Source: Aliiglaciecola lipolytica
GTDB lineage: Bacteria; Pseudomonadota; Gammaproteobacteria; Enterobacterales; Alteromonadaceae
Assembly (NCBI RefSeq): GCF_018860635.1
Contig: NZ_JAHKPT010000004.1
Location: 62,001 to 126,000 of the forward strand
DNA: 64,000 nt
Reading direction: 5' to 3'
The translations under genes and the position numbers were made by a program. The notes beneath the pieces were generated by a model that saw only the letters and a program-made list of their open reading frames with translations, did no database searches and was not told the origin of the DNA. Of this stretch, positions 16,690 to 28,191 are shown one piece after another (position 1 is the first letter of the stretch; every line of letters starts with the position of its first letter).

Positions 16690-16766
16690 GGAGTGGTAGT
16701 TCAGTTGGTTAGAATACCGGCCTGTCACGCCGGGGGTCGCGGGTTCGAGTCCCGTCCACTCCGCCA
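16690..16766 (+). tRNA. tRNA-Asp (GTC), copy 1
   Basis: A 77-base cloverleaf with encoded CCA. Acceptor stem GGAGTGG/CCACTCC, D-arm around AGTTCAGTTGG, anticodon loop CTGTCAC giving GTC, and T-arm GGGTTCGAGTCCC. It is very close to E. coli tRNA-Asp. First of three identical tandem copies. Confidence 0.98.
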
Positions 16767-16790
16767 ACATATTGAAGAAAATTTGCGAAT

Positions 16791-16867
16791 GGAGTGGTAG
16801 TTCAGTTGGTTAGAATACCGGCCTGTCACGCCGGGGGTCGCGGGTTCGAGTCCCGTCCACTCCGCCA
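16791..16867 (+). tRNA. tRNA-Asp (GTC), copy 2
   Basis: Identical in all 77 bases to the first copy, anticodon GTC, 3' CCA encoded. Separated from copy 1 by 24 unrelated bases; probably processed from one transcript. Confidence 0.98.
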
Positions 16868-16892
16868 GCAAATTTATTCTGTTTTAAAATGC

Positions 16893-16969
16893 GGAGTGGT
16901 AGTTCAGTTGGTTAGAATACCGGCCTGTCACGCCGGGGGTCGCGGGTTCGAGTCCCGTCCACTCCGCCA
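16893..16969 (+). tRNA. tRNA-Asp (GTC), copy 3
   Basis: Identical to copies 1 and 2, anticodon GTC, 3' CCA encoded. Separated from copy 2 by 25 bases. No clear terminator follows; a short ACTAGA/TCTAGT repeat lies just after it. Confidence 0.98.
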
Positions 16970-18095: not shown

Positions 18096-19100
<1,005 letters not shown>

Positions 19101-19117
19101 TCAATTTCACATTTGGT

Positions 19118-19132
19118 TGTAAGATAATTACA
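19118..19132. promoter_or_regulatory. HexR-like operator in the gapA leader
   Basis: TGTAAGATAATTACA matches the palindromic HexR consensus TGTAAT-N3-ATTACA with one mismatch. It covers the expected start point of the gapA promoter, which is a repressing position. HexR is a sugar-phosphate (KDPG)-responsive regulator of central carbon genes in gammaproteobacteria; the hexR gene is not in this window. Confidence 0.65.
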
Positions 19133-19135
19133 AAA

Positions 19136-19164
19136 ATTATGGATCATAATTGCCTATAAGGCAA
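19136..19164 (-). promoter_or_regulatory. Predicted sigma-70 promoter of gapA
   Basis: On the minus strand TTGCCT (19164-19159) and CATAAT (19141-19136) are 17 bases apart. The -35 box is part of a TTGCC/GGCAA inverted repeat. Transcription would start near 19129, inside the HexR-like box. Confidence 0.5.
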
Positions 19165-19542
19165 AAAAAACCCTGAAATTTGTTGTTTTATTACGATATA
19201 TTCACTGCAAACGTATTCAATAACGATTTATTAACATTATGACGGATAATGTAGACACCATCATAACAGAGTCTGTGGGGTAAAATTAGTACCTTGTTGG
19301 TCTGTTAACTTCATATAGACTTGAGAAACGAAGTTCTATTTAATAGTCTTTGAAGATCAATGAATAGGGATTTAATCAAGCATGATGGTGAGTCTTTAAA
19401 TTCGCTACTTAGGTAGTAAATGAAAAAATTGACAATATATCAACGCACATTTACCACTTATTAAGTAAAATTTCAGTTTTATATGAGACGAGGCTATTCT
19501 TAAAACTCGTCAAAGTACTATATTAATAGGACACAAAGCGGC

Positions 19543-21738
19543 ATGACTTCTCCTCTTATCGACAAGCTTGTAGATATAAAAGGTGTAGAATCGAACTACA
19601 TTGATGCATGGGGCAAACCCGAAATAGTTAAACAACAAAGTAAACGCAAATTATTGAGCGCCATGGGTTACCAAGTTGATGACGAGGAATCGTTAATCGC
19701 TCAGGTAGAAACAGAGTTTCAACAAATTTGGATGTCTCCACTTAATCCAGTTCAAGTAAATCGTGATACGGATGAGTTATTTATTACGGTTAGGCTTCCA
19801 ATAGAATTAGTTAATGACGACTTTGTCATCGCCATCGATTGTGAAGACAAAAGTACATTACAACAAAAGTTTGTACCTATAGATGGTGATTTAATCAACG
19901 CGACTATTATTGAAGATATAGAGTTTCAAGAATACCTAATTAAACTAAATCATTCTTTACCACTAGGTTACCATCAACTCAAACTGTTGGCGGATGACGG
20001 TGATCAGATTGCAGCAATGCGAATGATAATGGCACCTTCTTCTTGTTATCATCCTCAATCGATTCTAGATGGCCGCAAAGTCTGGGGGTTAAGCGTACAG
20101 CTTTACTGCCTTCGAAGCGAAAATAACTGGGGCGTTGGAGACTTCTCTGATTTGGCTCAATTGATTGCGTCTGCTGCTAAAAACGGTGCACAGTTTATTG
20201 GTTTGAATCCTATTCATGCACTTTATCCAGCAAATCCAGATGCGTGCAGCCCTTATGGACCTTCTTCCAGACGTTGGCTTAATTTTATATATCTAGATGT
20301 GACAGCTATTGATGGTTATAACTGTCCTGATGTACAAGAATTGGTGAATAATGCAGAATTTCAATCGCGCCTAGATCATGTGCGCAGTTTGGAATATGTG
20401 GATTACGAAGCGGTCACTCAATTAAAATTAGGTGCCCTTGAGCGTGTATTTGATAATCAAAATAGCCACTTTTTAAGTAAAAATACTAAGCAGAATAAAG
20501 CCTTTAAACAGTTTGTGAAAGAGGGGGGGGATAGTCTGCAAATGTTAGCCACATATGATGCTTTGCAAGAGCACTTGGCTAACCAAGGAAAACCCTCTTG
20601 GGGATGGCCTGTTTTTCCCAAAGAATATGCTGATTTTCAGTCGCCAGCGGTATCTAAATTTGTTAAAAAGAATGCAAAACGTGTCAAATTTTACTTGTTT
20701 TTGCAATGGCAAGCCGCGCTGCAACTAGAAGCAGCTAATCAAGTCGCAACACAAAATAACATGTCTATTGGTATTTATCGTGATTTGGCTGTTGGTGTGA
20801 GTGAAGGCAGCGCAGAGATATGGGGAAATAAAGATTTGTATTGCACAGATGCTAGCGTAGGCGCGCCGCCTGATGTGCTTGGTCCGTTAGGACAAAACTG
20901 GGGCTTGCCTCCAATGGATCCAGAGAAACTCTATCATCAGCAATATCAACCTATTATTGATTTGTTTGATTCAAATATGAGGTCTGCCGGAGCGTTAAGA
21001 ATTGATCACGTGATGGCGTTACTTCGTTTGTGGTGGGTAGCAAAAGGTGACAATGCAAAAGATGGCGGCTATGTTTATTATCCTGTAGATGATTTATTAG
21101 GTATCTTAGCCCTTGAAAGCCAGCGTCATCAAAGTTTAGTCATTGGTGAGGACTTAGGAACCGTACCTGAAGAAATCCGCAGTAAATTAGCTGATAACGG
21201 TGTTTACTCTTACCGTGTGTTCTTTTTTGAACAAGCTAAAGACGGCGGTTTTTATTCTCCATCAGATTATCCGGTTCAATCTATGTCAACGTTAACCACC
21301 CATGATATGCCAACGTTGTCGGGATATTGGCATTGTCACGATTTAGAACTTGGCAAAGAACTGGGGTTGTATCCTACTGAGGAAATATTGTCGGGGCTGT
21401 ATGCCAGTAGACACAGTAATAAGCAGCAAATCTTGAATAGTCTGCATGGACACCATGCCATTCCCGAATGGATGGATCGTCAAGTAGATCATCTTGGTAT
21501 GAGCAAAGAGTTAAACTATGACATGCAGGTGCATATGGCAACTGGGTCTAGCGCATTACTCAGTTTGCAACTTGAAGACTGGTTACAAATGGATAAACCT
21601 GTCAACATACCTGGTACTTTCAAAGAATATCCAAACTGGAAGCGCAAACTAAATCAGGATTTAGAGCAAATATTCTCTGATCCCGATATTGTGCTTTTAG
21701 CGAAAAAGCTAACGAAGGCTAGAGACAACGCAAAGTAA
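19543..21738 (+). CDS. malQ: 4-alpha-glucanotransferase (amylomaltase)
   Basis: A 731-residue GH77 enzyme with an N-terminal extension of about 170 residues like that of E. coli MalQ. The catalytic residues can be located: nucleophile Asp488 in RIDHVMALLRLWW, acid/base Glu536 in IGEDLGTVP and Asp588 in TTHDMPTLSGYW. It transfers maltosyl units between maltodextrins. First gene of a run with glgB and glgX, so it probably serves glycogen/maltodextrin turnover here. Confidence 0.96.
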   Translation: MTSPLIDKLVDIKGVESNYIDAWGKPEIVKQQSKRKLLSAMGYQVDDEESLIAQVETEFQQIWMSPLNPVQVNRDTDELFITVRLPIELVNDDFVIAIDCEDKSTLQQKFVPIDGDLINATIIEDIEFQEYLIKLNHSLPLGYHQLKLLADDGDQIAAMRMIMAPSSCYHPQSILDGRKVWGLSVQLYCLRSENNWGVGDFSDLAQLIASAAKNGAQFIGLNPIHALYPANPDACSPYGPSSRRWLNFIYLDVTAIDGYNCPDVQELVNNAEFQSRLDHVRSLEYVDYEAVTQLKLGALERVFDNQNSHFLSKNTKQNKAFKQFVKEGGDSLQMLATYDALQEHLANQGKPSWGWPVFPKEYADFQSPAVSKFVKKNAKRVKFYLFLQWQAALQLEAANQVATQNNMSIGIYRDLAVGVSEGSAEIWGNKDLYCTDASVGAPPDVLGPLGQNWGLPPMDPEKLYHQQYQPIIDLFDSNMRSAGALRIDHVMALLRLWWVAKGDNAKDGGYVYYPVDDLLGILALESQRHQSLVIGEDLGTVPEEIRSKLADNGVYSYRVFFFEQAKDGGFYSPSDYPVQSMSTLTTHDMPTLSGYWHCHDLELGKELGLYPTEEILSGLYASRHSNKQQILNSLHGHHAIPEWMDRQVDHLGMSKELNYDMQVHMATGSSALLSLQLEDWLQMDKPVNIPGTFKEYPNWKRKLNQDLEQIFSDPDIVLLAKKLTKARDNAK

Positions 21739-21811
21739 TTCTGTAATTATACTTTACTTAAACGGTTAAGGTTCTATATTTTGAACTGACGTTAACCCAT
21801 AAGGCGAATCA

Positions 21812-23995
21812 ATGTTAATAGAAGAAGAATTAAAGCAAGCTAATTGTACTGAACCATTTGAATTTTTAGGTAAAAAAACCATTGAAGAAATAACCCAATT
21901 TAATGTTTGGTTACCCGGAGCAAAAAATGTCAGTGTGTTTGACTTAGATTCTGGAAAAAACGTTGGCAAGCTAAAGCGAAAAAACAAAACAGATTTGTTT
22001 TGTGGTCAGTTTAAAAAGGTCAAAGAAGATTTGGTTTATGGTTTGAAAGTGGAAACTAAAGAAACTACCTATGACCTTATAGACCCTTATCAGTTTCAAG
22101 AACAAGCATTCCATGCGGTGCACTATGTTGATCATGCCCCTGAAAATGTGTATCAGCAATTGGGGGCACAGTTAATATCTTTAGACGTTGGACTGGATAA
22201 AAAAATAGAGGCAACTCGATTTGCGGTCTTTGCGCCTAACGCTAAGGCTGTATCTGTTATTGGTGATTTTAACTATTGGAATGGCAGTTGCCATCCGATG
22301 CAAAAAACGTCAATGGGTTATTGGGTTTTAATTATTCCAGGTTTATCTGCCGGCCAACGATATAAATATCAAATTAAAGATGCGAATGGCAATCAACTGC
22401 CTCACAAAGCTGATCCTGTGGGTTTTAGTGCTGAACAGTATCCATCTCACGCATCAATTATATTTAATCAAAATGATTATCAATGGAATGACGCTGAATG
22501 GATAGAGCAATCAAAAGCAGATAAATACTTACAGCCAATGAGTATTTATGAGGTGCATCTAGGTTCCTGGAAGCGACCAACTGATCCAGATAAAACCTAT
22601 TTAAGTTACCGCGAATTGGTCGATGACCTTATCCCTTATGTGAAAGACATGGGATATACTCATCTGGAAGTATTGCCGATTTCTGAGTTTCCGTTCGATG
22701 GCTCTTGGGGATATCAACCTGTAGGCTTGTTTTCACCCACTAGTCGATTTGGCGATCCCGACGACTTTAAATTTTTCGTAGATAAATGCCATCAAAATGG
22801 TATTGGCATTATAATCGATTGGGTACCGGCGCATTTCCCCGAAGATGGTCACGGATTAGCTCGTTTCGATGGTACTCATGTTTACGAGTACGAAGATCCG
22901 CGTAAAGGCTGGCATCCAGATTGGAACTCTTGTATCTATGACTTTGGTAAAGATACAGTGCGTCAATTTTTGGTGGCCAACGCATTGTTTTGGATAGAAC
23001 ATTTCCACATTGATGGACTGCGTGTAGATGCTGTAGCATCTATGTTGTACTTGGATTATTCCCGTAAAGATGGTGAATGGATCCCCAATGTTGATGGCGG
23101 AAACGAAAATTACGAAGCGATCAGCTTTTTGCAATGGATGAATAAAGCCGTTTATGAGAAGTTCCCTCGGGCAATGACCATCGCCGAAGAGTCGACTTCG
23201 TTTCCTAAAGTGTCTAAACCCGTATTCGAAGGTGGTTTAGGTTTTGGATTTAAATGGAACATGGGGTGGATGCACGATTCGTTGCATTACATCAGTAAAG
23301 ACCCTTCCTACCGACGTTATCATCATGGTGAAATAACCTTCAGCATGGTTTATTCCTTTAGTGAGAGCTTTGTTCTACCTATCTCCCACGATGAAGTGGT
23401 GCATGGTAAAGGGGCATTACTTAGAAAGATGCCTGGTGACGAATGGCAGCAAGCCGCCAATCTGAGATGCTATGCTGGCTTTATGTATGCACACCCAGGT
23501 AAAAAATTGAATTTTATGGGCAATGAAATTGGGCAAAGTTCTGAATGGAATCATGACGCTTCATTACAATGGGATTTGCTTAATTTTGATAAACACAAAG
23601 GCATTCAATCTTTGTATCGAGATCTAAACAACATATATCGCACTTATCCTGCGCTATATGAAAGTGATCATGATCCTGATGGGTTTGCATGGATCGATCA
23701 TGGGAATGCTGAGCAATCTATGCTTTCGTTATTGAGAAAGTCTAAAAATGGACAGCAAACGGTGATTGCGGTTAGTAACTTTACGCCAGTACCAAGGGAT
23801 GAATTTAGAGTAGGGGTTCCTGAAGAAGGTGAATACCATTTAATACTTAATTCTGACGACAAAAAATATTGGGGTAGTGGTTACAAGGTACTTAAAAATG
23901 TACAATCTGAAGCGGTAAAATGGAATAATCAACCTTATTCTATTCGTATTAATATGCCTCCTTTGGCTACATTGATGTTACAAATAACAGAGTGA
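21812..23995 (+). CDS. glgB: 1,4-alpha-glucan branching enzyme
   Basis: 727 residues. An N-terminal GlgB-N-like module and a CBM48 (about 120-220) precede the GH13 barrel. The nucleophile is Asp406 in DGLRVDAVASMLYLDYSR and the acid/base Glu459 in IAEEST, matching E. coli GlgB Asp405 and Glu458. It forms alpha-1,6 branches in glycogen. AAGG precedes the ATG, 73 bases after malQ; glgX starts 4 bases after its stop. Confidence 0.97.
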   Translation: MLIEEELKQANCTEPFEFLGKKTIEEITQFNVWLPGAKNVSVFDLDSGKNVGKLKRKNKTDLFCGQFKKVKEDLVYGLKVETKETTYDLIDPYQFQEQAFHAVHYVDHAPENVYQQLGAQLISLDVGLDKKIEATRFAVFAPNAKAVSVIGDFNYWNGSCHPMQKTSMGYWVLIIPGLSAGQRYKYQIKDANGNQLPHKADPVGFSAEQYPSHASIIFNQNDYQWNDAEWIEQSKADKYLQPMSIYEVHLGSWKRPTDPDKTYLSYRELVDDLIPYVKDMGYTHLEVLPISEFPFDGSWGYQPVGLFSPTSRFGDPDDFKFFVDKCHQNGIGIIIDWVPAHFPEDGHGLARFDGTHVYEYEDPRKGWHPDWNSCIYDFGKDTVRQFLVANALFWIEHFHIDGLRVDAVASMLYLDYSRKDGEWIPNVDGGNENYEAISFLQWMNKAVYEKFPRAMTIAEESTSFPKVSKPVFEGGLGFGFKWNMGWMHDSLHYISKDPSYRRYHHGEITFSMVYSFSESFVLPISHDEVVHGKGALLRKMPGDEWQQAANLRCYAGFMYAHPGKKLNFMGNEIGQSSEWNHDASLQWDLLNFDKHKGIQSLYRDLNNIYRTYPALYESDHDPDGFAWIDHGNAEQSMLSLLRKSKNGQQTVIAVSNFTPVPRDEFRVGVPEEGEYHLILNSDDKKYWGSGYKVLKNVQSEAVKWNNQPYSIRINMPPLATLMLQITE

Positions 23996-23999
23996 AAAT

Positions 24000-26075
24000 T
24001 TGGCTAATTCAAAACAACATGGTTTTTCAGTAACCGAAGGTGAATGCCTTCCTTTAGGTGCGACTTTAACAGAAACGGGCTGTAATTTTGCAGTCCACAG
24101 TCCAAATGCTCAACAAGTGTTGCTTTGTCTTTTTAAGCAAGACACTGAAGAACCAATAGAATATTTTGAATTGAAAGCAAAAACTGGTGAAGTATGGCAT
24201 GGCCATATTGAAGGTGTTTCAGCCGGCCAGTTATATGGCTATCGCACCCAAGGCGAGAACAAACCCTGTAATGGTAACTGTTTCCATCCAGAAAAATTAT
24301 TGATCGACCCTTACGCAAAGCAATTAAATCGCGCGCTACATTGGAACCGCAAAAAGTATGAAGGTGATAGCGCTTTAATGATGCCAAAGTGCGTGGTTGT
24401 CGCTGAAAATAATCCGCCTTTAACCGACGACCATCAAAGACCTCGCACTCCGTTAAGCGAAACTATCATATACGAAGCCCATGTTAAGGGCCTGACAAAA
24501 CTCCATCCCGATGTTCCTGAAAACCTCAGAGGCACGTATCTTGGTGCTTGCCAACCAGCAATTATTCAGCATTTAAAAGAGTTGGGGGTGACGGCTGTAC
24601 AATTTTTACCCGTTATGGCGTTTATGCCAGAGCCTTATATCACTGAAAAAGGACTGACAAATTATTGGGGTTACAACCCAATTAATTATTTCTGCCCTGA
24701 GATGCGCTATGCCATTGATGACCCTATTGCTGAATTCAAAACCTTAGTGGAAAAATACCATGAAGCGGGATTAGAGGTTATTTTGGACGTGGTATTTAAC
24801 CACACCGCGGAAGGGGGCTTTGATGGCCAAGTATTGTCGTTTAAGGGATTTGATAATGCGTCTTTTTATCTGTTTGAGAAAGATGAACACGATCTTAGGA
24901 ATTTCGAGCATTACGTCAATTATTCTGGATGCGGCAATAGTGTCAATACGGCTTCACCTTATGTCATGAAGATGGCGATGGATGCATTGCGGTATTGGGT
25001 TAGTTATATGGGCGTGGATGGCTTTAGATTTGATTTGGCCGCTGGGTTAGGGCGAGATCCTTATGAATTTTCAAGCACTTCAGGCTTTTTAACGACACTG
25101 CGTCAAGATCCTATTTTGGCTGGCGTTAAGTTGATAGCAGAACCCTGGGATATTGGCCATGGTGGCTACCGTTTGGGAGAGTTTCCTGCTAACTGGCAAG
25201 AAGTTAACGACAAGTTCAGAGATACGGTTAAAGGTTTTTGGCGTGGTGATGTCGGTTTAACCGGAGAATTTGCAACCCGCTTATTAGGATCCAGAGATAT
25301 ATTCCCAAAAGGTCGGCGCTCAATTCATTCGTCAGTGAATAATGTGACTTATCATGACGGATTTACGTTACATGATTTAGTTTGTTATTCGAGTCGGCAT
25401 AACGAAGCCAATTTAGAAGATAACCGAGATGGTCATGGGCATAACTTGTCTGCTAATTACGGTGTTGAGGGGCCAACGAAGGACGAAAATATCAATGCAT
25501 TGCGCGAAAAACAAAAGCGTAATTTATTCGCGACCTTAATACTTTCCCAAGGCATTCCCCATGTGTTAGGTGGCGATGAGCTGAGTCGAACACAACAAGG
25601 GAATAATAATGCCTACTGTCAGGATAACGAGGTAAATTGGTCACAGTGGCAATTAAACGAGTCACAACAAGACTTTTTGGCATTCTGTAAACAAGTGATT
25701 GCATTGCGAAAAAGCAGCATCATTTTAACCGACTTGTCTTTAAAGGATGACGAGTACAATCTTCATCACAACGTTGATGAAGTGAATTGGTATCGACCCG
25801 ATGGTGAAAATAAATTGGATTCGGATTGGCAAGATCCCCATAAACAATCTTTTGCGGTTGAATTGAAAGGATGCCCCAAACATACAGACGAACATTTGTT
25901 ATTAATTTTTAATACCTACGATCATGATGTTCGTTTTCAACTACCAAGCGGAATTTGGACGTTAGAACTTGATACACGATACAAGAAGCCGTCGTTACAA
26001 CCTAAAACCAAAATATCGAATGTATTCCTGCAAGCCTATCGAAGTGTTACTGTATTTAAACGAAGCTGTAATTAA
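24000..26075 (+). CDS. glgX: Glycogen debranching enzyme GlgX (isoamylase type)
   Basis: A 691-residue GH13 enzyme with CBM48 at the N-terminus (about 15-110). The nucleophile is Asp345 in GFRFDLAAGLGR and the acid/base Glu381 in IAEPWDIG; YHDGFTLHDLV and GGDEL are further signatures. It removes short alpha-1,6 branches from limit dextrins. The start is a TTG at 24000, almost touching glgB, which suggests translational coupling. glgC and glgA are not in the window. Confidence 0.95.
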   Translation: MANSKQHGFSVTEGECLPLGATLTETGCNFAVHSPNAQQVLLCLFKQDTEEPIEYFELKAKTGEVWHGHIEGVSAGQLYGYRTQGENKPCNGNCFHPEKLLIDPYAKQLNRALHWNRKKYEGDSALMMPKCVVVAENNPPLTDDHQRPRTPLSETIIYEAHVKGLTKLHPDVPENLRGTYLGACQPAIIQHLKELGVTAVQFLPVMAFMPEPYITEKGLTNYWGYNPINYFCPEMRYAIDDPIAEFKTLVEKYHEAGLEVILDVVFNHTAEGGFDGQVLSFKGFDNASFYLFEKDEHDLRNFEHYVNYSGCGNSVNTASPYVMKMAMDALRYWVSYMGVDGFRFDLAAGLGRDPYEFSSTSGFLTTLRQDPILAGVKLIAEPWDIGHGGYRLGEFPANWQEVNDKFRDTVKGFWRGDVGLTGEFATRLLGSRDIFPKGRRSIHSSVNNVTYHDGFTLHDLVCYSSRHNEANLEDNRDGHGHNLSANYGVEGPTKDENINALREKQKRNLFATLILSQGIPHVLGGDELSRTQQGNNNAYCQDNEVNWSQWQLNESQQDFLAFCKQVIALRKSSIILTDLSLKDDEYNLHHNVDEVNWYRPDGENKLDSDWQDPHKQSFAVELKGCPKHTDEHLLLIFNTYDHDVRFQLPSGIWTLELDTRYKKPSLQPKTKISNVFLQAYRSVTVFKRSCN

Positions 26076-26105
26076 TCAGTATTAAATTCTACTTTGGAGA
26101 TTTCG

Positions 26106-26498
26106 ATGAAATTAACCGATGAGCAATGGCGTGAAAAGTTAACCGAAGAAGAATATAGAGTATGCCGACAAAAAGGCACTGAAAGACCCTTTACTGGGGA
26201 ATTGCTGCATAATAAAGATACTGGGGACTACACCTGTACTTGTTGTGGCAGTATTCTTTTTTCATCTGAAGATAAATTTGATTCAGGTTGTGGTTGGCCG
26301 TCTTTTTCCGCACACACTAAACATGACAATGTGGCGTTCCATGAAGACAATTCATTGGGTATGCAACGAATTGAAATAGTGTGCAAAAATTGTGAAGCTC
26401 ACCTAGGACATGTTTTCCCCGATGGCCCAGCACCTACAGGCCAACGTTATTGCGTCAATTCAATTTCCGTTAAGTTTTCACCTGAAAAAGCGGAATAA
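26106..26498 (+). CDS. msrB: Peptide-methionine (R)-S-oxide reductase
   Basis: 130 residues from the ATG at 26106, which has GGAG six bases upstream. The catalytic cysteine is Cys116 in RYCVNS, the probable recycling cysteine is Cys62 in SGCGWPSF, and zinc is held by Cys44/Cys47 and Cys93/Cys96. It repairs R-methionine sulfoxide in proteins. It follows glgX by 30 bases and may share its transcript; in E. coli msrB lies beside gapA, yeaD and yeaC, all of which occur elsewhere in this window. Confidence 0.96.
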
Positions 26499-26532
26499 AT
26501 CGCAGTTTTTTAAAATAGTTAGAAATAATTTT

Positions 26533-26547
26533 TGTAATATTTTTACA
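26533..26547. promoter_or_regulatory. HexR-like operator upstream of the second GAPDH gene
   Basis: TGTAATATTTTTACA has one mismatch to TGTAAT-N3-ATTACA. It lies about 200 bases before the gene at 26746 and well upstream of the candidate promoter, a position that would suit activation. The AT-rich setting raises the chance of a random match. Confidence 0.45.
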
Positions 26548-26673
26548 GGAATTCCTAGCTAATTTCCTGCATAAGGCGTTGTTCTCCTTCATAACGGAAA
26601 TTTATGAGGTAAAATTACATTCAATACCTGCTTTCATTACTATTTTGTCTAAAAATTGAAACTTTATACCAGT

Positions 26674-26702
26674 TTGGTGATATGCATAACTACCTTTAGA
26701 AT
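26674..26702 (+). promoter_or_regulatory. Candidate promoter of the second GAPDH gene
   Basis: TTGGTG (26674-26679) and TAGAAT (26697-26702) with a 17-base spacer. The -35 box is weak. Confidence 0.35.
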
Positions 26703-26745: not shown

Positions 26746-28191
26746 ATGAATCAGCAGTTTGAACAGGAACTCATGGGCAGTTGGCAAGAGCGTCAAGAAT
26801 ACGCTGAATTGATGCAGCCTGTACTTGGTAAATTATATCGTGACAGCGCTGTTGAAATCTCGATTTTTGGAAGACCTATGTTAGGTGCCAGCGCTATCGA
26901 CATTATAAAATCTCACCGTAAAGTTAGACGTCATACAGGTGATAAACTTCGACTAAGAGAAAGTTGGCCAATTCTAGAGGAAATGAGCAAGCTTCAATTA
27001 GCACCTGCACACATTGATTTAGGTAAATTAGCTTACGCATATCATCACGATGATAAATTTAAAGATATGGACATCAAGTCCTACTTAGATGAACAGCTAG
27101 TTAGTATTGCAGGAAAGCAAGATAATCACCCAGTTCAAGACGTGGTTTTATACGGCTTCGGTCGAATTGGAAGACTGTTGGCTCGATTGCTTATTGAGCG
27201 TCAAGGTAAAAACAATAAGTTACGCCTAAAAGCCATTGTCGTTCGTGGCGGAAAAGACGGTGATTTAGAAAAGCGTGCCAGCTTACTACGCAGAGATTCT
27301 GTTCATGGTCCATTTAGTGGCAGCATAACAGTTGACCACGAACGCAATGCTATAAAGGCGAATGGTTCATTTATTCAAGTTATTTACGCAGACTCCCCAG
27401 ACAGTGTTGATTACACTCAATTTGGTATAAAAGATGCCATTGTCATTGATAATACGGGTATTTGGCGTGACCGCGACGGTTTAGGTCTACACCTAAAAGC
27501 GAAAGGCACTAAAAAGGCTATTTTGACCGCACCAGGAAAAGGCGACGTTAAAAATATTGTTTACGGTGTAAACCATAGTGATATTACCAGCGACGATACT
27601 ATTCTGTCGGCCGCTAGTTGTACAACTAACGCTATTACACCAGTATTAAAAGCCTTAGATGAGCAGTTTGGTATTGAAAACGGTCATGTTGAAACGGTTC
27701 ACTCATTTACCAATGACCAAAACCTAATCGATAATTTCCACAAAGCAGAGCGACGTGGTCGCAGTGCAGCATTAAATATGGTTATTACGGAAACAGGCGC
27801 AGCAAAAGCCGTATCCAAAGCCTATCCGAAGTTAGAAGGTAAATTAACCGGCAACGCGATACGTGTACCAACGCCAAATGTATCTCTAGCTATTTTGAAT
27901 TTAAATTTGAATAAGTCGACAGATAAAGAGGAAATGAATAATTTCTTGCGCGACCTTTCATTGTTTTCTTCATTGCAACACCAGGTAGATTTTACTTCAT
28001 CTATTGAAATTGTATCTACTGACTTAGTTGGTTCACGAGCAGCATCAGTGGTTGATTCGCAAGCCACTATCGTTGCAGGTAATCGTGCTACCTTATATGT
28101 TTGGTATGATAATGAGTTTGGATATAGTTGTCAGGTTATGCGCGTAGTGCAAGCTATGGCAGGTTTAACTTACCCAACAATTCCAGCTTAA
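26746..28191 (+). CDS. N-terminally extended glyceraldehyde-3-phosphate dehydrogenase
   Basis: 481 residues, about 150 longer than GapA. A helical extension of about 130 residues precedes the NAD(P)-binding motif YGFGRIGR (from 136). The catalytic cysteine is Cys292 in SAASCTTNA, and the His follows in ETVHSFTND; the C-terminal WYDNEFGYSCQVMR is typical of GAPDH. Similar long GAPDHs occur in marine gammaproteobacteria and Pseudomonas, where I believe they serve gluconeogenesis; that role is inference here. The HexR-like box upstream supports a link to carbon flux. Confidence 0.88.
   Translation: MNQQFEQELMGSWQERQEYAELMQPVLGKLYRDSAVEISIFGRPMLGASAIDIIKSHRKVRRHTGDKLRLRESWPILEEMSKLQLAPAHIDLGKLAYAYHHDDKFKDMDIKSYLDEQLVSIAGKQDNHPVQDVVLYGFGRIGRLLARLLIERQGKNNKLRLKAIVVRGGKDGDLEKRASLLRRDSVHGPFSGSITVDHERNAIKANGSFIQVIYADSPDSVDYTQFGIKDAIVIDNTGIWRDRDGLGLHLKAKGTKKAILTAPGKGDVKNIVYGVNHSDITSDDTILSAASCTTNAITPVLKALDEQFGIENGHVETVHSFTNDQNLIDNFHKAERRGRSAALNMVITETGAAKAVSKAYPKLEGKLTGNAIRVPTPNVSLAILNLNLNKSTDKEEMNNFLRDLSLFSSLQHQVDFTSSIEIVSTDLVGSRAASVVDSQATIVAGNRATLYVWYDNEFGYSCQVMRVVQAMAGLTYPTIPA

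Follow-up and report, generated by a model that had tools for sequence, protein, structure and literature searches.

The two glyceraldehyde-3-phosphate dehydrogenase (GAPDH) genes of the window, the 64,000-nucleotide stretch of Aliiglaciecola lipolytica DNA analysed here, are each preceded by a palindromic box that, to judge from its sequence and conservation, is very probably bound by the regulator HexR. We put the probability that both boxes are operators from which HexR acts on gapA and gapB in the manner proposed below at about 0.72. The type I GAPDH gene gapA (331 amino acids; open reading frame at 18096-19091, minus strand; NCBIfam TIGR01534, 463.4 bits, cut-off 367.2) and the long GAPDH gene gapB (481 amino acids; open reading frame at 26746-28191, plus strand; NCBIfam PRK08289, 801.5 bits, cut-off 431) lie 7.6 kb apart with glycogen genes between them. 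The box positions and sequences given in a sequence-only reading of this DNA are correct: TGTAAGATAATTACA at 19118-19132, before gapA, and TGTAATATTTTTACA at 26533-26547, before gapB, each differ by one mismatch from the consensus TGTAATNNNATTACA. Throughout, mismatches are counted against this consensus, the control consists of 59 permutations of its half-site (permuted motifs), and genome counts are counts of related sequences rather than of independent events.

Both boxes are conserved among close relatives. Within the last 120 bp before gapA, a box with at most one mismatch is found in 6/7 genomes of the genus and in 21 of the 24 family genomes, a count that includes those of the genus (permuted means 0.03 and 0.07, respectively). 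Within the last 300 bp before gapB, 6/8 genus genomes carry a box at this threshold (permuted mean 0.05, maximum 1) and all eight carry one with at most two mismatches (permuted mean 0.61, maximum 4); furthermore, of all 15-column stretches before gapB in the genus alignment, the one ranking second in conservation overlaps the left half of the box. Local shuffling gave a box with at most one mismatch in 28/3000 cases for the malQ-gapA intergenic region and in 8/3000 for the msrB-gapB region. Of the 80 named gapB loci examined, all 13 from Shewanella have a box with at most two mismatches 153-158 bp before gapB, as do 11/67 non-Shewanella loci somewhere in the 400 bp upstream, with 0/4 for the named Alteromonas loci over the same 400 bp. 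The concern attached to the sequence-only reading, that the boxes might be no better than random sequence and not conserved in close relatives, fails for gapA and, as far as the genus is concerned, for gapB as well. Within any one genome the evidence for the boxes is weak, and it is because of their conservation across relatives, rather than from word counts, that they are judged to be beyond chance.

The absence of a hexR gene had been named as another possible objection, and the gene is present: in the zwf|hexR-pykA layout of this genome, a 283-residue protein with HTH_6 and SIS domains is encoded between zwf and pykA, scores 529.8 bits against the NCBIfam HexR model (cut-off 296) and has 58 of its first 80 residues in common with Escherichia coli HexR, whose gene has the same neighbours. 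A hexR gene is found in 175/196 genomes of the family (E <= 1e-50). HexR is known to regulate globally, and its regulon has expanded in Shewanella and Vibrio (PMC5343134; for Shewanella also PMC3223726); it is thought to repress when its box lies downstream of the promoter and to activate when it lies upstream (PMC11906056). Boxes without a mismatch precede ppsA, pykA (between hexR and pykA), glgP, a Spot 42-like RNA and, once, a DUF3718 gene in the own genome. Compared by mismatch to the consensus only, pykA, ppsA and glgP thus have none, gapA and gapB one, and zwf two, zwf having only two-mismatch boxes. At a threshold of one mismatch the genome contains 25 places, 9 of them inside reading frames and 6 intergenic without a connectable gene; the remaining 10 precede ppsA, pykA, glgP, the Spot 42-like RNA, the DUF3718 gene (two), a CBM48 gene (two), gapA and gapB. 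The genome also encodes a second RpiR-family (HTH_6) regulator, an open reading frame of 277 amino acids (L017 from 1501; own genome C32:322533).

The predicted gapA promoter (19136-19164, minus strand) consists of TTGCCT (19164-19159) and, after 17 bp, CATAAT (19141-19136), the -10 element being kept in the genus alignment. In 7/7 genus genomes the box begins 3 bp after this conserved -10 element (CATAAT or CATACT) and, because of this position, covers the predicted start, so that the repressing geometry read from the sequence alone is upheld. A second, distal box at 19181-19195, which had been overlooked, is centred 63 bp from the proximal one; it is weak in the own genome and in genome G003 (three mismatches) and has one or two mismatches in the remaining five genomes of the genus that carry gapA. 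When twin boxes are defined by at most three mismatches each and a spacing of 55-70 bp, they are present in 25 of 58 gapA upstream regions (some genomes being represented in two collections), with spacings of 63 (14 regions), 62 (10) and 61 bp (1), compared with a mean of 0.64 and a maximum of 7 for permuted motifs. Genome G029 has an additional 68-bp pair that shares a box with a 63-bp pair. Between malQ and gapA lies also an almost invariant block, TTGAATACGTTTGCA (19206-19220, minus strand), at which conservation before gapA in the genus reaches its peak over 15 columns (0.99) and whose shape resembles that of a LacI-family operator.

At gapB it is the distance between box and promoter that is conserved. 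The predicted -10 element, TAGAAT (26697-26702, plus strand), is kept in the genus, and the box centre lies 157 bp upstream of its first base; across the genus this distance is 156-157 bp in seven of eight genomes and 167 bp in the eighth, where for G005, which has two two-mismatch boxes (223 and 100 bp before the ATG), the box that fits the spacing was chosen. The intervening sequence is only 34-61% identical in all genus pairs except that of the own genome (G000) with G003 (81%), and alignments of pairs drawn from the seven genomes with the 156-157 bp distance require 0-2 gap columns; the leader from the -10 element to the ATG, by contrast, varies from 48 to 90 bp. Since length is kept without sequence and has changed once, by about one helix turn, this comparison of eight related genomes suggests that the box is helically phased relative to the -10 element and that the contact made from it may be phase-dependent. 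The activating geometry claimed for this box is accordingly sustained in part: the box does lie far upstream of the gene at a preserved distance, but its position at about -170 from the predicted start is not that of a textbook activator, and activation from there is possible but not standard. Conservation before gapB peaks (0.90 over 15 columns of the genus alignment) in a stretch that contains an inverted repeat, ACCAGTTTGGT (26668-26678), near the predicted -35 element. A further conserved block, AAAATTACATTCAAT, is found at about 26611-26625.

The mechanism that we favour is modelled on other bacteria. HexR, a member of the RpiR family, would release DNA when 2-keto-3-deoxy-6-phosphogluconate (KDPG), an intermediate of the Entner-Doudoroff pathway, accumulates. 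In the absence of sugar, HexR bound over the gapA start would shut off the glycolytic GAPDH. The distal box, which faces the same side of the helix 62-63 bp further upstream, would probably allow HexR to span the promoter. The gapB promoter would be acted on by HexR from a site some 170 bp upstream, in constant helical phase and most likely to activating effect, by way of bent or looped DNA in which a protein sitting on the ACCAGTTTGGT repeat might take part. Once sugar is present neither effect would persist, and gapA would rise and gapB fall. By the same analogy, KDPG would be the signal, the two effects would have opposite signs, the long GAPDH would have a gluconeogenic role, and flux would be switched between the two directions.

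Several observations weigh against this reading. Across the window, box words are no commoner than expected by chance, as the gapA and gapB boxes are the only two that reach two mismatches or fewer, compared with 6.24 expected from whole-window shuffles, and the excess in the single genome is small (25 places versus 16 for the reversed pattern, at one mismatch). In the last 300 bp before gapB, the 26 family genomes outside the genus have no box at one mismatch or fewer (0/26) and a single one at two or fewer (1/26). With some 170 bp between it and the predicted start, the gapB box is outside the usual range of an activator, and that of Shewanella ANA-3 lies only about 65 bp upstream of a start placed by eye, which is a more usual activator distance. 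In addition, the gapA and gapB starts were themselves deduced from sequence, and the choice made for G005 leaves six unselected cases of seven for the gapB spacing. The idea that one sensor serves both GAPDHs is strengthened by the presence of hexR, by the boxes at pykA and ppsA and by the repressing gapA geometry, and weakened by the lack of conservation of the gapB box in the rest of the family.

The gapB box could accordingly be a chance AT-rich palindrome, the gapA box alone being real, and the high genome-wide background of box-like words, the 0/26 count and the distance from the predicted promoter would all fit; we consider this improbable in view of the conservation in the genus, which exceeds the permuted maxima at both thresholds (6/8 against 1, 8/8 against 4), the conserved stretch over the left half of the box, the box in 13/13 Shewanella loci, and a distance to the -10 element held at 156-157 or 167 bp over largely replaced sequence (with the G005 box chosen). 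It is very improbable that the boxes are real and belong to another regulator, such as the second RpiR-family protein (277 amino acids, L017) or some other factor. Such a protein is indeed encoded in the genome, and the Pseudomonas HexR relative RccR is described as binding a TGTAGT/ACTACA palindrome and controlling a gluconeogenic gap (PMC5489143), but the same box word occurs without a mismatch between hexR and pykA and before ppsA, hexR is present in the 175 family genomes mentioned, including (compared by eye) all 74 that have the Spot 42 15-mer discussed below, and the predicted Vibrio HexR motif is TGTAATTAAATTACA (PMC11906056). Finally, HexR might repress gapB too, by means of a loop, instead of activating it, which would suit both the fixed phase over 157 bp and the conserved ACCAGTTTGGT repeat near the predicted -35 element. 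We regard repression as unlikely, since upstream boxes are viewed as activating (PMC11906056) and the long GAPDH is taken as gluconeogenic, the latter by analogy with Pseudomonas gap, which may or may not be of the long type (PMC5489143). Operators with opposite effects on gapA and gapB remain the preferred reading.

Candidate HexR boxes at other genes show similar regularities. Before ppsA, a box with at most one mismatch is followed by a conserved TAAAAT in 8/8 genus genomes, at about -59 from the predicted start (counted by hand), and outside the genus 9/22 of the loci fetched have a box with at most two mismatches within 300 bp. A dual mode of HexR and an action on ppsA were reportedly described by Leyn in 2011. 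The glgP gene is preceded by a box with at most one mismatch in 7/8 genus genomes, G005 being the one without, and at two mismatches or fewer the box extends to 10 of the 11 nearest other loci (L289-L299) and to 1/11 of the more distant loci fetched; a second glgP box lies exactly 113 bp away in four loci (L287, L290, L291, L294) and at other distances in L286 (108 bp) and L299 (123 bp). Twin boxes 62-63 bp apart, a spacing near that at gapA, precede the CBM48 gene in 8 of the 22 genomes that have it, among them 6/7 judgeable genus genomes; G005, with only 19 bases upstream, could not be judged, and G006 has no 62-bp pair. In the own genome this gene encodes a 102-residue protein and its twin boxes are 62 bp apart (L014 1501-1577, C15:82599-82675). 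Two boxes, with no and one mismatch (L002 1501-1515 and 1677-1691), also stand at the DUF3718 gene, which encodes a protein of 110 residues.

The glycogen genes between the two GAPDH genes had been drawn into the proposed switch by their position. A scan of the window found no box with two mismatches or fewer near malQ-glgB-glgX besides the gapA boxes, so that these genes find no support as HexR targets through such boxes; the link to glycogen holds at glgP, elsewhere in the genome. For Vibrio parahaemolyticus, glgX is reported to be HexR-activated (PMC11906056).

A further box lies upstream of a small RNA. In the own genome, a box without a mismatch is located between polA and engB, 50 bp upstream of an RNA (L004 1501-1632, C16:19368-19499) whose first 15 bases are those of Spot 42 and which ends in a terminator-like stem. 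At the gathering threshold Rfam finds no Spot 42 in this polA-engB stretch, and because the score against the Rfam family (RF00021; 24.8 bits, E = 0.015) is below the gathering score of 80, the RNA is classed only as Spot 42-like; in fact, the gathering score is reached in just 1/19 tested loci of the window's family. Downstream of the RNA there is a weak match to the suhB/mmgR RNA family (L004 1857-1929; 34.5 bits, gathering 41). The exact Spot 42 15-mer is found in 74/196 family genomes and is lacking in the other 122; the box counts cover the 74. Of 77 loci drawn from the family, named and order collections, in which some genomes occur twice, 62 have both polA and engB as neighbours and 15 have one of these genes. 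A box with at most two mismatches is centred 49-53 bp upstream of the 15-mer in 66/74 family genomes, representing 20/22 genera, and one with at most one mismatch in 57/74; permuted motifs at two mismatches or fewer give a mean of 0.19 and a maximum of 6 in the same 74 genomes, and the count of 66 becomes 65 if the best box anywhere in 110 bp is taken. The eight genomes without a box at this place are the only one of genus g16, all six of g66 and one of g5. A terminator-like stem follows within 130 nucleotides in 73/74, a count for which there is no shuffled control.

Beyond the family, the 15-mer is present in 43 further genomes of the order, 34 from six other families and 9 from a Shewanella-like family (the families are known by number, and their names, including this one, were assigned by inference). 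In the six families the box stands at the same place in 15/34 genomes at two mismatches or fewer and, in degenerate form, in 32/34 at three or fewer, compared with permuted means of 0.03 and 0.64 and maxima of 1 and 6; in the Shewanella-like family no genome (0/9) has a box there. The nine Shewanella Spot 42 loci (L272-L280) lack a HexR box and carry a CRP-like word (one or two mismatches; no chance control was run for such words) centred 71-72 bp upstream. Other owners of the box were considered. An UP element would fit the A-tract that follows the box at -51 but not its palindrome, and same-letter permuted motifs score low; a CRP site was likewise set aside, the CRP-like word in the nine Shewanella loci occurring at 71-72 bp without a HexR box. 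In E. coli, the Spot 42 gene (spf) is controlled by cAMP-CRP and shares the first 15 bases and the polA-engB location with the RNAs described here; its published CRP site is centred at -84.5 (PMC3295665), with a two-mismatch box-like word, TGAAAAAAAATTACA, at -52, whereas the window's family has a HexR-type box at 49-53 bp.

We tentatively propose, at somewhat less than even odds, that HexR directly controls Spot 42 in the window's family and that KDPG sensing is an old second input beside CRP across the order, lost in the Shewanella-like family. In that case HexR would influence metabolism at two levels, as a transcriptional regulator of gapA, gapB, ppsA and glgP and by way of an RNA, with its operators at fixed helical spacings (62-63 bp between twin boxes, and 157 or 167 bp from box to -10 element at gapB). 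The sign of its effect at Spot 42 would be activation by the rule for upstream boxes, or repression by analogy with glucose-induced Spot 42. A link between HexR and Spot 42 was not found in the open literature searched. A transcription start-site map of an Alteromonas (PMC5864184) mentions neither gap nor HexR nor Spot in its main text. If true, the link would connect the sensor of the Entner-Doudoroff pathway with a classic small RNA of the glucose response and would give a function to a conserved spf promoter element for which no owner was found in that literature.

The GAPDH finding is real and mostly of a known kind, that of KDPG sensors switching two GAPDHs. Cra/FruR of the Enterobacteria, which activates gluconeogenesis, belongs to the LacI family and differs from HexR in ligand and operator. 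The likeness is that a single sensor of sugar phosphates represses glycolysis and sets which way carbon flows (PMC4052901). In Pseudomonas, KDPG sensors control two GAPDH isoenzymes, HexR gap-1 and RccR gap (PMC5489143); there two regulators are involved, whereas here one type of box stands before both GAPDH genes. With the HexR regulons of Shewanella and Vibrio the present system has in common the regulator, the box, central-carbon genes including pykA and zwf, and a dual mode (PMC5343134; PMC3223726; PMC11906056). It differs from them in that a stretch of 7.6 kb containing glycogen genes separates the two GAPDH genes, that gapA has twin boxes at 62-63 bp, and that boxes are also present at glgP and at a Spot 42-like RNA; compared with Shewanella ANA-3, the gapB box is about 170 rather than about 65 bp from the predicted start. 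What is notable is the architecture, with phased twin boxes and a distance from box to promoter that is held, or shifted by about one helical turn, over replaced sequence.

The window is located on contig 32 of a genome of 5.03 Mb, whose nearest named relatives by gapB are Alteromonadaceae. According to the list of open reading frames and profile models, gapA is transcribed leftward and all of the other genes of the region rightward, namely, on the plus strand, malQ (4-alpha-glucanotransferase, divergent from gapA; 19543-21738), glgB (glycogen branching enzyme; 21812-23995), glgX (glycogen debranching enzyme; 24000-26075), msrB (methionine sulfoxide reductase B; 26106-26498, the ATG at 26106 being taken as its start) and the long GAPDH gene gapB. 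Three tRNA-Asp genes lie in tandem at 16690-16969 of the window.

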